From: Cerasicoccus sp. TK19100
GTDB taxonomy: Bacteria; Verrucomicrobiota; Verrucomicrobiia; Opitutales; Cerasicoccaceae
Reading direction: 5' to 3'
Assembly (NCBI RefSeq): GCF_027257155.1
Contig: NZ_JAPWDU010000001.1
Location: forward strand, 310,001 to 374,000
Length of the DNA: 64,000 nt
The translations under genes and the position numbers were made by a program. Position 1 is the first letter of the stretch, and each line of letters begins with the position of its first letter. Below are positions 21,378 through 25,680 of this stretch, piece by piece. The notes under the pieces are model-generated. The model worked only from the letters and a program-made list of their open reading frames with translations, ran no database searches and was not told the DNA's origin.

Positions 21378-22135
21378 TGGAGTTTCTCGGCATCGGCTGG
21401 CAGGATTGGTTGTTTGCAGCCTTGGGAGCGGCCTTAATAGGTCTGTCTAAGGGCGGGCTTCCGGGCGCGGGCAACGTCAGTATTTGGATTTTTGCGGAGG
21501 TCTTTGGGGCCAAGGAATCGGTGGGCTACCTGCTGCCGGTGTTGGTCTGCGGTGACACGGTGGCGATCATCATCTACCGCCGTAATGCGGACTGGGGGCA
21601 CGTTTGGCGGCTATTCCCACCGATGGCAATTGGTGTGTTGGCCGGATGGCTGCTGTTTCACCAGATTCCGGCGCAGGAGTTTCGCGTCGTCATGGGGTGC
21701 CTGCTACTGATGATGACCGCGCTGCACTTTGGCCGCAAGTGGATGCTGCGCAAACAACAGGCCGGTGAGGACAAGGTGCCACACGCCAAGTGGTTCATCT
21801 GGAGCACGGGCGTGGGCGGTGGCTTGGCCACAATGCTCGCCAATGCCGCGGGCCCGGTGGCGGCGTTTTACCTGATGGCGGTGCGGCTGCCGAAGTTTGC
21901 CTTTATCGGGACCTCTGCCTGGCTGTTTTTCATGATCAACCTGTTCAAGATGCCCTTTCAGGCGCAACTGGGCACGGTGAATGTCACCTCGATCCCGATT
22001 AGTCTGACGCTGGGCGTGGTCGCGGCACTGGCCTGCTTGGTGGCTCCAAGGATCGTGAAGTATATTCCGCAAAGGCAATTTGAGTGGTTGGTCTGGGCGG
22101 TAATCGTCTTTGCCGGGGTGCGATTAATATTTTAA
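21377..22135 (+). CDS. TSUP (TauE/SafE) family anion transporter
   Basis: 252 residues with about eight hydrophobic segments. The GTG at 21377 shares its G with the recF stop codon (TAGTG) and gives VEFLGIGWQDW as the N-terminus; the longer open frame from 21248 would run inside recF and encodes an Arg-rich tail that is not membrane-like. Family motifs are GLSKGGLPGAGNVSI in the first repeat and LANAAGPVAAFYLM in the second. TSUP proteins export or import sulfite, sulfoacetate or other small anions. The overlap suggests translational coupling to recF. Confidence 0.85.
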   Translation: MEFLGIGWQDWLFAALGAALIGLSKGGLPGAGNVSIWIFAEVFGAKESVGYLLPVLVCGDTVAIIIYRRNADWGHVWRLFPPMAIGVLAGWLLFHQIPAQEFRVVMGCLLLMMTALHFGRKWMLRKQQAGEDKVPHAKWFIWSTGVGGGLATMLANAAGPVAAFYLMAVRLPKFAFIGTSAWLFFMINLFKMPFQAQLGTVNVTSIPISLTLGVVAALACLVAPRIVKYIPQRQFEWLVWAVIVFAGVRLIF

Positions 22136-22153
22136 AAATCTTTCGATCCATGC

Positions 22154-22181
22154 TTGACGAGCCTCTGCTCAGATGTAGTTT
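22154..22181 (+). promoter_or_regulatory. Candidate promoter of tRNA-Gln
   Basis: TTGACG (22154-22159) and TAGTTT (22176-22181) are separated by 16 bp, and the mature tRNA begins 15 bp further on. The -35 match is good and the -10 match moderate. Confidence 0.45.
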
Positions 22182-22195
22182 ACAGCGCTTACGTT

Positions 22196-22269
22196 AGGCC
22201 CATGGTGTAATGGTAGCACAGAGGTTTTTGGTACCTTTAGTTGGGGTTCGAGTCCCTGTGGGCCTGCCA
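22196..22269 (+). tRNA. tRNA-Gln (anticodon UUG)
   Basis: A complete cloverleaf of 74 nt including an encoded CCA. The acceptor is AGGCCCA (22196-22202) paired with TGGGCCT, followed by discriminator G, as expected for glutamine. The D arm is GTGT/GCAC. The anticodon stem GAGGT/ACCTT encloses loop TTTTGGT with anticodon TTG. The T arm has loop TTCGAGT. It is followed directly by a row of hairpins. Confidence 0.95.
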
Positions 22270-22597
22270 TAAAAGCAAAGCTTTTAAAAACGAGATGCGG
22301 TGCATCTCACGCGGTTAAGTAACCGCACGTCCGCCAAAGGGACGAGAAACCCCAAGGGGTTTGACGAAGCGGAAGAGCGATCATGGGCCGATAGGTGTGC
22401 ATAATGAGTCTCTCAGAGTTTACCTATAAGCTTGTACTCAAAACTTGGATCTGTATTAAGTAAATGATTGTGCATGAAGCTTTGCGCCTAATATGTGCAC
22501 TATTTTCTTTTATATTCCAGATTAGTCATACATAGTAATCAAGTATATGAATATAGGGTTGGGGTTGTTTTATTTTCAGCAATGGTATGTTCGCAAA
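22270..22597 (+). other. Gene-free gap after tRNA-Gln beginning with five consecutive hairpins
   Basis: Five small hairpins follow the tRNA head to tail: 22271-22285 (AAAAGC/GCTTTT), 22292-22308 (GAGATGC/GCATCTC), 22311-22326 (GCGGTTA/TAACCGC), 22328-22344 (CGTCC/GGACG) and 22347-22362 (AAACCCC/GGGGTTT). All stems are perfect, 5-7 bp with short loops. The first could terminate the tRNA transcript. After 22390 the sequence becomes AT-rich with no gene until the sulfatase. One frame of the first part reads KAKLLKTRCGASHAVK before a stop, so a decayed coding end is possible. Confidence 0.7.
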
Positions 22598-24706
22598 ATG
22601 ATATGCGCTTTTCTTTTGCTGTTCTTCGCTGCGGGTAGCCTTTTGGCTGATGCTCGACCGAATTTTGTCATATTCCTAAGTGATGACCAGTTGGAGTATG
22701 AATATGGTTTTTTGAATCCAGAAATCGTGGCAACGCCAGCGATAGACAGATTAAGGGCTGAGGGCGTATATTTTGAGAACTTTTATTTGAATGCCTCTGT
22801 CTGTTCAAGCAGTCGATATAGTATCTATTCCGGGAATTATCCTAATCGCGGCATTTTTGGCAGTAACACTATCCATCGCTACAATCAGCGTCGATTGGCG
22901 TTCGCAAGTTTGATTCAGAAAGGTTCACCTTCAGTGGGGGCCGTGCTTCAGGCCGCTGGCTATCGCACTGGTTTCGTTGGAAAATCGGATGGCTACGCTC
23001 GCAATGGTTCATATCGATTGACTTCAACGGCTGACCGCAGAGATCCTCTATTACAAGCGGATTTAGCTCACGATCAGGTAGTGCTACAAGATGCAATCAA
23101 AGCGCATGGTTATGACTTTGCCGCTGCTCTTTATCGGGGGAATGTCATTAGCGGGAGCCCACATAATATGGAATGGGTTACGAGTGCGGCGCTTGATTTT
23201 TTGAATGAACCCGGGGATGAACCTTTCTTTCTGGCGATCAATTCAACCTTGGTCCACAGTCCATTTGGTTTGGTGAACCATCTATCTGGCGATCCGAGTA
23301 ATACCGATGGTGGATTGTTGAGTGATTCAGCTGTAAATTACATTGCCGCTAGCATGACTCCACGAACTGAAATCAAAGAGAGTTATGAACAGCTTGGCCT
23401 CTCGGATGCTCATCTTCCCCTGTATTGGATGGATGACGCAGTCCGCGCAGTATATGATCACTTGGATGAATTGGGAAAGTTAGATAATACCTATTTCATC
23501 TTTCTTACGGATAATGGCGGGGCTTTACCGCAGGATGGGAAAGGCGATATCTACGAAGAAGGTATGCACGTGCCTCTTATAATCAGAGGGCCGGGAATCC
23601 CTGCTGGAGCGACTTCTGGTGCACTCTTATCGGCTGTCGATATATCCGCGACCATCTATGATCTTGCAGAAGTTGATACTGCGGATTGGCCTATCATTGA
23701 TGGTATCTCGTTTCGCAATAGCCTTGATGGCGTAACACCCGCGAGATCATGGGTTTTTATGGAAATGGGCGTCACGCGCGCTCTAGTGTCTGCTGATAGG
23801 TATAAATACATACATTTTGCGATTACTTATGATATTCTAGAGCAGAATGCAGATGGTGTGATTGATCCGCACGCCGCATTGCCCCATGACCCAACTAAGC
23901 CAGATATTGCTTTTTATACTCACTTTGGTGCTCAAACTGCATTTGCACCGACCCTTTCCTCATGGGGGGGAGCGTGGATAAACCATCCGCATTACTTTGA
24001 TCGTGAGCAGCTCTATGACCTGGCTTACGATGAGGCGGAAACCATTAATTTGATCGGTACATATCCTGAATTAGATCAACAGTTTCGCCTAATCCTAGCC
24101 GAGCTTTCCGATTCATTGGAAGGTACCTATCCGGGCTTTAAATATGAGTTGGAGATAAATGATCAGGGGCAGGTTGTCGGCGGTCCCATTCCGAGCGGTG
24201 GAATTCCAGCCCAATGGCCCGCGTTATTTGAGCTAGCGGCAGGTTCTGCATATCCTGCTTCAGAGACCGTGATTTCCGGGGGGGATGTTAACGCTGAATA
24301 TAAAGTCTCGGCAGATCTTCAGGATCGAGGTCTAGTTGTTGGAATGAGTGATGGGAAACTGGTATTGCTACCGAACTACCATCTTTGGCTAAAATCTGGT
24401 GGTCTCATTCCTGACGAAGTTGGAGATGATTTGCTGATTCAGTATGCAACCAATGAGGCATTCAATCTATCAGCCACGGGCATTGCTATTATTTCCGATG
24501 CCGATACTCCTCTTCATCTGAAATATCGAGCTCTTAGGCCCGAGCTCAATTATGTGCTTGAGTATTCTAGCGAGCTTGATGGGGATTGGATGGAAGTTAA
24601 TGCAGGAGACATTTTCGACGAGGGTAATATGAAACGTATGTTGCTTGGTAGTGACGTAGGAAAAATCCCCAGCTTTTACCGTCTAAGTGTAGATAGACGC
24701 TTCTAA
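22598..24706 (+). CDS. Exported sulfatase (alkaline phosphatase superfamily), AT-rich
   Basis: About 702 residues from the ATG at 22598, which gives a signal peptide (MICAFLLLFFAAGSLLA-DARPN); an ATG at 22547 would add 17 residues. The metal-binding FLSDDQ near the N-terminus and the formylglycine motif CSSSR (in NASVCSSSRYSIYSGNYPNR) mark it as a type I sulfatase. FLTDNGG supplies the second metal-site pair. The catalytic domain ends near residue 530; the rest is a beta-rich tail ending in FYRLSV, like the C-terminal modules of verrucomicrobial exoproteins. It needs a formylglycine-generating enzyme, not seen here. Its base composition and codon use are visibly more AT-rich than neighbouring genes, and it lies behind a tRNA, suggesting acquisition. 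Confidence 0.85.
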   Translation: MICAFLLLFFAAGSLLADARPNFVIFLSDDQLEYEYGFLNPEIVATPAIDRLRAEGVYFENFYLNASVCSSSRYSIYSGNYPNRGIFGSNTIHRYNQRRLAFASLIQKGSPSVGAVLQAAGYRTGFVGKSDGYARNGSYRLTSTADRRDPLLQADLAHDQVVLQDAIKAHGYDFAAALYRGNVISGSPHNMEWVTSAALDFLNEPGDEPFFLAINSTLVHSPFGLVNHLSGDPSNTDGGLLSDSAVNYIAASMTPRTEIKESYEQLGLSDAHLPLYWMDDAVRAVYDHLDELGKLDNTYFIFLTDNGGALPQDGKGDIYEEGMHVPLIIRGPGIPAGATSGALLSAVDISATIYDLAEVDTADWPIIDGISFRNSLDGVTPARSWVFMEMGVTRALVSADRYKYIHFAITYDILEQNADGVIDPHAALPHDPTKPDIAFYTHFGAQTAFAPTLSSWGGAWINHPHYFDREQLYDLAYDEAETINLIGTYPELDQQFRLILAELSDSLEGTYPGFKYELEINDQGQVVGGPIPSGGIPAQWPALFELAAGSAYPASETVISGGDVNAEYKVSADLQDRGLVVGMSDGKLVLLPNYHLWLKSGGLIPDEVGDDLLIQYATNEAFNLSATGIAIISDADTPLHLKYRALRPELNYVLEYSSELDGDWMEVNAGDIFDEGNMKRMLLGSDVGKIPSFYRLSVDRRF

Positions 24707-24750: not shown

Positions 24751-25680
24751 CTAAGCCGTCAGCACGGTCAGAATCGCTTTTTGCACGTGGAGGCGGTTTT
24801 CGGCTTCGTCAAAAACAATGGAGGCCGGGCTGTTGTAAACGTCTTCGCTGACTTCCTCGCCCAGGTGTGCGGGGAGGCAGTGCATGAAGAGCGCGTCCGG
24901 CTTGGCGGCGGCCATTACATCGGCATTGACTTGATAGGGTTGGAGGAGCTTCAGGCGTGATTCCTTTTCCTCTTCGGCCCCCATGCTGACCCACACGTCG
25001 GTGTAAACCACGTCAGCATCTTTCGCTGCCTTGAGCGGGTCCGTGGTGAACTGGTCCGTGAGCGGCTTGCCTTGTGATGCAAGGTCGTCGATGACGGCTT
25101 GCCCTGGCGCGAGTTCTTGCGGTCCGCCCAGTGCGATGTCGATGCCCAGGTGTGCGCCAGCGAGAAGCCAGGAGTTGGCCATGTTGCAATTGGTGTCGCC
25201 GAGGAAGGCGATCTTGCGGCCTTGGACGCTGGCCAGGTAGTTGTCGCCGTCAGCGTATTTTTCCGCCGCGGTAAAGATGTCCGTAAGGATCTGGCACGGG
25301 TGCGAATAGTCGGAGAGGGCGTTGATGATCGGCATCGTGCCGTGCTCGGCAAATTGCTCGAGCAGCTCGTGCTCGTAGCACCGGATCACCATGCCGTGCA
25401 GGTAGCGCGAAAGCACCTTGGCGGTGTCGGCCACGGATTCGCCGCGCGAGATCTGCGTATTGCTCGCGCTGAGGATCAGCGGGTGCGCGCCGAGTTCATG
25501 CAAACCGACCTCGAACGACACACGCGTCCGCGTGCTATTCTTATAAAAGAGCATGCCCCAGCTTTGCCCAGCGAGGGTCTTGGGGGTGGCGGCGCGCTCG
25601 CGCTTGTATTGGGCAGCCAGCTTAAAGACCTCGTTAATTTCATCGTTGGTGAGGTCGGTGACTTTCAGGAAATGCTTCAT
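24751..25680 (-). CDS. argF: Ornithine carbamoyltransferase
   Basis: 309 residues. It condenses ornithine with carbamoyl phosphate to citrulline. The carbamoyl-phosphate site is STRTR (residues 49-53), with HPCQ (127-130) and the ornithine-binding, catalytic HCLP (267-270), the classic OTC signature. It is the last gene of the argC-J-B-D-F operon, 4 bp after argD. Confidence 0.95.
   Translation of the reverse strand: MKHFLKVTDLTNDEINEVFKLAAQYKRERAATPKTLAGQSWGMLFYKNSTRTRVSFEVGLHELGAHPLILSASNTQISRGESVADTAKVLSRYLHGMVIRCYEHELLEQFAEHGTMPIINALSDYSHPCQILTDIFTAAEKYADGDNYLASVQGRKIAFLGDTNCNMANSWLLAGAHLGIDIALGGPQELAPGQAVIDDLASQGKPLTDQFTTDPLKAAKDADVVYTDVWVSMGAEEEKESRLKLLQPYQVNADVMAAAKPDALFMHCLPAHLGEEVSEDVYNSPASIVFDEAENRLHVQKAILTVLTA

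Follow-up and report, generated by a model that had tools for sequence, protein, structure and literature searches.

Hairpins behind tRNA-Gln in Cerasicoccus sp. TK19100: a candidate tRNA trailer combining a two-hairpin repeat with a truncated RtT-like unit

Results

A dense row of hairpins begins at the CCA end of tRNA-Gln

We analysed a stretch of 64,000 nucleotides of the Cerasicoccus sp. TK19100 genome (the window), in which a tRNA-Gln gene is followed by a closely packed row of inverted repeats. The features of this block are listed below in window coordinates.

22196-22269, + strand: tRNA-Gln (TTG) with encoded CCA, the host of the block (ARAGORN; Rfam tRNA, 57.8 bits)
22270-22308, + strand: H1 and H2 together, a copy of the two-hairpin repeat, flush 3' of the CCA (R1 match; family covariation)
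22270-22286, + strand: H1, perfect stem of 7 bp, loop of 3
22292-22308, + strand: H2, perfect stem of 7 bp, loop of 3
22311-22326, + strand: H3, perfect stem of 7 bp, loop of 2; outside model R1
22328-22344, + strand: H4, perfect stem of 5 bp, loop of 7; its downstream half overlaps the left arm of the RtT-like unit
22334-22343, + strand: left arm, complementary at 9 of 10 bases to the tRNA strand 22252-22261; inside an inverted pair
22344-22371, + strand: GAGAA, H5, TTTGAC and the start of the tail, the front of the truncated RtT-like unit (C. maritimus identity; R3)
22347-22362, + strand: H5, perfect stem of 7 bp, loop of 2
22407-22417, + strand: possible degenerate remnant of a tRNA-Gln 3' copy (uncertain; R3 alignment to the tRNA-copy positions, with several mispairs)

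All five perfect hairpins were packed into the 93 bases 3' of the tRNA end at 22269. An earlier reading of this DNA, made from the sequence only, had described five consecutive hairpins at a density far above chance, and the row proved to be real. When the window was divided into 2062 overlapping segments of 93 nt (step 31), none contained five such hairpins and two contained four; dinucleotide shuffles of the block (n = 5000) gave a maximum of three. The minimum-energy fold of 22268-22400 was -44.6 kcal/mol (z -3.80), and 0 of 200 shuffles were equally stable. The same reading had identified H1 as a hairpin and had drawn its stem one pair too short; the first base of H1 lies directly after the CCA. 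A scan for terminator-like sites found none within the row and returned sites at 22483 and 22618, outside it. H3 is not conserved as a stem, as judged by eye from the alignment with C. maritimus, where it has 5 bp in one unit and is broken in the other.

An 8-nt inverted match between the tRNA 5' end (GGCCCATG, 22197-22204) and the end of the block (CATGGGCC, 22382-22389) had also been pointed out. The match exists, and we take it to be a chance one, because other exact inverted pairs of 8-9 nt occur within the same 601 bases and because the C. maritimus units differ in the aligned stretch. The proposal that the block is the degenerated end of a protein gene, which drew on one short open stretch, appears extremely improbable: no ORF of at least 40 aa overlaps 22152-22494, and the differences between relatives are double changes that preserve the stems, together with single-base indels.

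Further downstream, an ORF at 22547-24706, which we take to be sulfatase-like, separates the tRNA-Gln block from a carbamoyltransferase-like ORF at 24751-25680. A gene was gained or lost here, since in C. arenae (L062) the carbamoyltransferase-like ORF directly faces tRNA-Gln.

H1 and H2 belong to a repeat family with compensatory changes

In C. frondis, C. arenae and C. maritimus the tRNA-Gln loci open with H1-H2, and changes have occurred in both strands of the stems. A model, R1, was made from an alignment of 11 two-hairpin copies from which the window copy was left out. In this alignment 98.7% of stem cells were paired, compared to 23-43% in slid controls, and double changes were present in 7 of 14 pairs; the number of further pair types was ordinary (126 of 500 shuffles as high). 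R1 matched the window at 22270-22311 with an E value of 3.3e-8. Conserved pairing with compensatory changes behind other tRNAs, which had been named beforehand as the check for a structured element, was therefore found for H1-H2. G-U pairs exceeded A-C mismatches 11:2 among 64 distinct rows (the best 65 of 90 in alignment A4), a hint at selection on the RNA strand, with the proviso that the model may itself favour G-U.

Six R1 matches at E<=1 were detected in the genome of Cerasicoccus sp. TK19100, two of them below 1e-7. At E<=0.1, matches were seen in at least 20 of 54 relatives, including at least 9 of the 10 genomes of the Cerasicoccus family; G004, a member of that family, had no match at this threshold among the matches listed. 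Outside the family the matches listed were weak, except in G021, which belongs to another family of the same order and had at least four matches, the best of those listed at 3.9e-6. At least two of 145 genomes in a sample of the phylum had a match at E<=1e-4, and those two were from the Cerasicoccus family. To judge from these searches, the two-hairpin repeat is found almost only in the Cerasicoccus family. R1 gave 0 matches at E<=1 in 12 loci holding E. coli and other Verrucomicrobiota units, so that the hairpins seen by eye behind the CCA there need not belong to the same family.

The two-hairpin repeat often abuts the 3' ends of genes

Copies linked to tRNAs in the Cerasicoccus family start 0-3 nt after the CCA of Gln, Trp, Asn, Arg, His and Pro tRNAs, and at tRNA-Gln of G008 (L152 996-1036) the CCA doubles as the first three bases of the first stem. 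Some Cerasicoccus copies follow stop codons rather than tRNAs (L137, L138 and L140), and three copies in tRNA arrays (L067:1909, L136:509 and L136:841) are not directly behind a whole tRNA. Large tRNA arrays with hairpin modules between the tRNAs were present in C. frondis (L067), C. maritimus (L136) and our own genome (L073); near 490-550 of L136 a curtailed tRNA-Trp-like start with a module behind it was seen by eye.

The repeat is dispersed in G005, a genome of a sister genus, with 66 R1 matches at E<=1. Positions were analysed for 51 of these, each with an E value of 0.0013 or better, and 18 of the 51 started between -6 and +2 nt from the end of a same-strand stop codon (ORFs of at least 80 codons; 2.6% for random positions). 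We also pooled the 51 copies with 18 copies of other genomes (n = 69), leaving out L152, three copies of G021 and the other tRNA-linked copies. In this set 21 copies were flush with an ORF end (ORFs of at least 120 codons; random 1.4%, slid 2.2%), 40 had an ORF end within -6 to +30 (random 6.6%, slid 8.5%), and in 21 the stop codon lay within the repeat (+3 to +30; random 4.8%, slid 6.3%). Similarity between the G005 copies has an abrupt left edge at the first base of H1 and a ragged right end. Five core-type genes of G005 with a copy behind them were then compared over ten genomes of the Cerasicoccus family (50 loci, R1 search): all five G005 loci had a match, and SmpB of G008 was the single match among the other 45. 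Orthology is uncertain for one of the genes, the MBL hydrolase, because the Cerasicoccus proteins are only about half identical to that of G005. The G005 copies look young.

Such dispersal behind stop codons in G005 and its relatives is what would be expected if the block were a cluster of REP-type palindromes with no special relation to the tRNA, perhaps acting as a terminator or as a barrier to exonucleases. REPs near stop codons are known, with 446 of 4072 E. coli REPs lying within 15 nt of one (PMC12306157). We nevertheless regard this explanation as quite unlikely: H4, H5 and the tail match a tRNA-tail unit whose arm fits the host tRNA (see below), R1 copies are few in our genome, and the terminator-like sites lie outside the hairpin row.

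The sequence-only reading had further proposed a site recognised by a mobile element. The repeat-like nature of both components of the block agrees with this in part, but no enzyme for it was identified. PF01797 (RAYT) had 8 matches in the genome of Cerasicoccus sp. TK19100 and none in G005, G007 or G008, and a RAYT-driven REP was rejected on that account. Retro-insertion at RNA 3' ends, hinted at by sites flush with CCA, with stop codons and in one case with a T-run (L131), was set aside because PF00078 (reverse transcriptase) had no match in G005, the genome with the most copies; at least one match was present in 7 of 10 Cerasicoccus-family genomes. With neither enzyme in its most copy-rich genome, a repeat that sits flush at CCA ends and stop codons presents a second puzzle that can be tested.

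H4, H5 and the tail are homologous to tandem units behind tRNA-Gln of C. maritimus

In C. maritimus, tRNA-Gln is followed by a 189-bp tandem repeat that runs for 2.1 copies up to the end of the contig, and each unit opens with the last 19 bases of tRNA-Gln. Window positions 22251-22371 were 87% identical to positions 7-126 of the 189-bp unit, and the window block is homologous to these units. The array had no match to plasmids or phages at E<=0.01. The complementarity of 22334-22343 to the T-stem/acceptor strand of the tRNA (22252-22261) is a relation to the tRNA that had been overlooked, and is better than the 8-nt match at the tRNA 5' end. The unit is whole in C. maritimus and truncated in the window, where a search for a repeated tRNA 3' end in the block found none.

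Another unit lies behind tRNA-Glu of the same genome, at the end of contig C1. It is present as one full copy, with the T-loop junction and the tail as in C. maritimus; Tandem Repeats Finder listed no repeat there. The Gln and Glu units aligned far above shuffles (0 of 500 as high), and the fold of the Glu unit was ordinary compared to shuffles (z -0.21). All four occurrences of the tail motif in 49 genomes were located behind a tRNA, one of them about 200 nt away from it.

A second model, R3, was made from ten units with no Cerasicoccus row among them. It detected the unit at tRNA-Glu (E 7.4e-10) and both C. maritimus units (E about 1e-7). For C. frondis and C. arenae, the tRNA-Gln loci gave no match at E<=1. 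Over the whole window at E<=5 it returned a single place, 22334-22417, with 16.1 bits (E 0.18). Among 45 loci around the tRNA genes of Cerasicoccus sp. TK19100, R3 found the Glu unit, the window place and an unrelated locus (L077) at 15.5 bits; the window score taken alone is therefore not above chance, and the assignment of the window copy to the unit rests on its similarity to C. maritimus. The window copy is probably a relic.

The assemblies break in repeats linked to tRNAs, at the end of C1 (L085) in our genome and at the end of C17 (L023) and the start of C18 (L024) in C. maritimus. C. maritimus also has a repeat (L023 977-1140, L024 652-820) that is MITE-like by eye; it is about 165 bp long and its ends are inverted (TTAGAGGGCGTCTAAAAA with its complement).

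Units of the same plan follow other Verrucomicrobiota tRNAs and carry arms matched to them

An intact unit opens with a left arm that can pair with the T-stem/acceptor strand of its host tRNA. GAGAA, a hairpin, TTCGAC and more hairpins come next, and the last part repeats the tRNA 3' end directly, beginning in the T-loop. A pattern of this plan matched 8 of 288 Verrucomicrobiota genomes, and the reversed control matched 0. The matches comprised 13 distinct places. In nine of them a tRNA was detected in front of the unit (Ser, Arg, Pro, Pro, Arg, Ser, Gln, Met and Glu); the other four (three in G187 and one in G158) were near contig ends, with no tRNA in the examined sequence. Seven of the nine units closed with a copy of their own tRNA 3' end, while the copy was imperfect in the Ser unit of G156 and none was found in the Gln unit of G198. 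The pattern also matched stretches of two viral contigs. One (L274) resembles the E. coli repeats by eye; the other (L275) was dismissed, again by eye, as a chance match inside a gene.

The arms match the tRNAs that they follow. In a permutation test on 12 units, including those of the window and E. coli, with some rows related (two Pro, two Gln) in a way that permuting does not correct for, the six positions outside the fixed pattern gave 53 matches between arm and own tRNA, compared to a permuted mean of 25.1 and a maximum of 49 (0 of 20000 permutations as high). The stem formed by the arm and the tRNA copy showed double changes in 7 of 10 pairs across 13 units, and its covariation score was above all 500 shuffles. 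Two further measures were unexceptional: 28 of 500 shuffles had at least as many doubly changed pairs, and 138 of 500 at least as many pair types. Compensatory change behind other tRNAs was thus observed for the arm of the RtT-like unit as well as for H1-H2.

The arm together with GAGAA is a near-inverted copy of the T-arm. A departure of two bases from the inverted copy recurs in E. coli and in Verrucomicrobiota; the search pattern fixed these letters in most rows, so that the free evidence comes only from E. coli, C. maritimus and the window. The arm might be no more than an inverted copy, in which case pairing would not imply a function in RNA, and the units may instead be passive DNA, that is, remnants of site-specific integration in tRNA T-loops or products of foldback or tandem duplication. 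The copies start at the same point of the T-loop in tRNA-Gln, tRNA-Glu and the other units, as such an origin would predict, and tandem duplication from the T-loop would by itself yield a repeated tRNA end. Retention of the arm, GAGAA and TTCGAC behind different tRNAs and in E. coli argues against passive DNA, with the letters partly fixed by the pattern, as does the shortness of the units, which judged by size lack an integrase or other genes. We consider passive DNA an unlikely explanation of the units.

Discussion

On balance we favour a reading of the block as a 3' trailer of tRNA-Gln built of two layers, a family-specific two-hairpin repeat and a truncated RtT-like unit. The repeat (H1-H2) has a sharp left end that abuts gene 3' ends, and the unit behind it would be transcribed together with the tRNA. 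In an intact unit, the arm and the tRNA-tail copy may close a tRNA-like stem that ends in CCA. Since such a stem would end like a tRNA acceptor, tRNA 3' processing could cut there, and cuts at each CCA would free the unit as a small RNA, as the anatomy of the units and the case of E. coli suggest. The structured RNA released from the tRNA transcript that had been proposed for the window fits the intact relatives, but the window copy is truncated. Because its far end is lost, the remnant is probably only a structured trailer that is cut off the tRNA, and this is the likeliest present role of the block. Two partners are available to the arm in the window, the upstream half of H4 and the strand of the tRNA itself. 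As H1 begins on the base after the CCA and leaves no single-stranded run for trimming, we predict an endonucleolytic cut.

A broader possibility, which we raise tentatively and with considerable doubt, is that RtT, rather than being peculiar to enterobacteria, is one twig of a cross-phylum group of tRNA-tail parasites. At each new tRNA these would remake an arm specific to the host, nearly an inverted copy of the T-arm and acceptor strand. It would also follow from this view that the hairpin pair of the trailer in the Cerasicoccus family is an independent mobile repeat that lands exactly at gene 3' ends. If units of the RtT plan with host-matched arms do follow many Verrucomicrobiota tRNAs, their origin and function could be compared across phyla. 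Through the arm one could then ask how a unit becomes adapted to a new tRNA, and whether its RNA acts upon that tRNA or its processing.

Comparison with REP and RtT elements

A limited search of the open-licence literature found nothing on Cerasicoccus repeats or on RtT-like units outside enterobacteria. The two-hairpin repeat resembles the GTAG and CGTC families of REPs, which are short extragenic palindromes in multiple copies and frequently lie near stop codons; for CGTC repeats, PMC3733652 describes no transposase. Many extragenic copies, as expected of a REP, are present in G005 (66), unlike our genome (6 at E<=1). The repeat further differs from REPs in its fixed order of hairpins and in its sharp start at gene 3' ends or behind the CCA, and PF01797 is absent from the three genomes named above.

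The rtT RNA of E. coli is freed from the tyrT transcript. The Cerasicoccus units share with RtT (RF00391) a position behind a tRNA. The E. coli tyrV-rttR-tpr repeats are tandem (178 bp x 3.1 units) and include tRNA 3' ends copied from the T-loop onwards; C. maritimus has such a tandem array, and the tRNA-Glu unit one full copy. The Cerasicoccus units differ in their host tRNAs and in a spacer and inner hairpins that are unlike those of E. coli, and the window copy is truncated and carries no tRNA copy. Alignment of the C. maritimus Gln unit with E. coli was at chance level (149 of 500 shuffles as high), and that of the Glu unit was exceeded or equalled by 6 of 500 shuffles (48 of 500 for the reversed Glu control). 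The Rfam RtT model had no match in window 22100-22600 at E<=5 or in the Cerasicoccus loci L023 and L056 at E<=0.5. Of 11 other Verrucomicrobiota loci, five held units to which it gave 25-38 bits, and four of these belong to a single genome (G239); E. coli scored 133-138 bits. Among the loci scored, its gathering threshold of 45 bits was reached nowhere outside E. coli. Because the scores lie under this cut-off, the units are named RtT-like and are not filed as RtT. PMC7657543 reports a tandem GA motif in RtT RNA. The arm complementary to the host tRNA strand, GAGAA and TTCGAC are all present in E. coli, and the window shows the same plan in an arm that fits at 9 of 10 bases, followed by GAGAA and TTTGAC.
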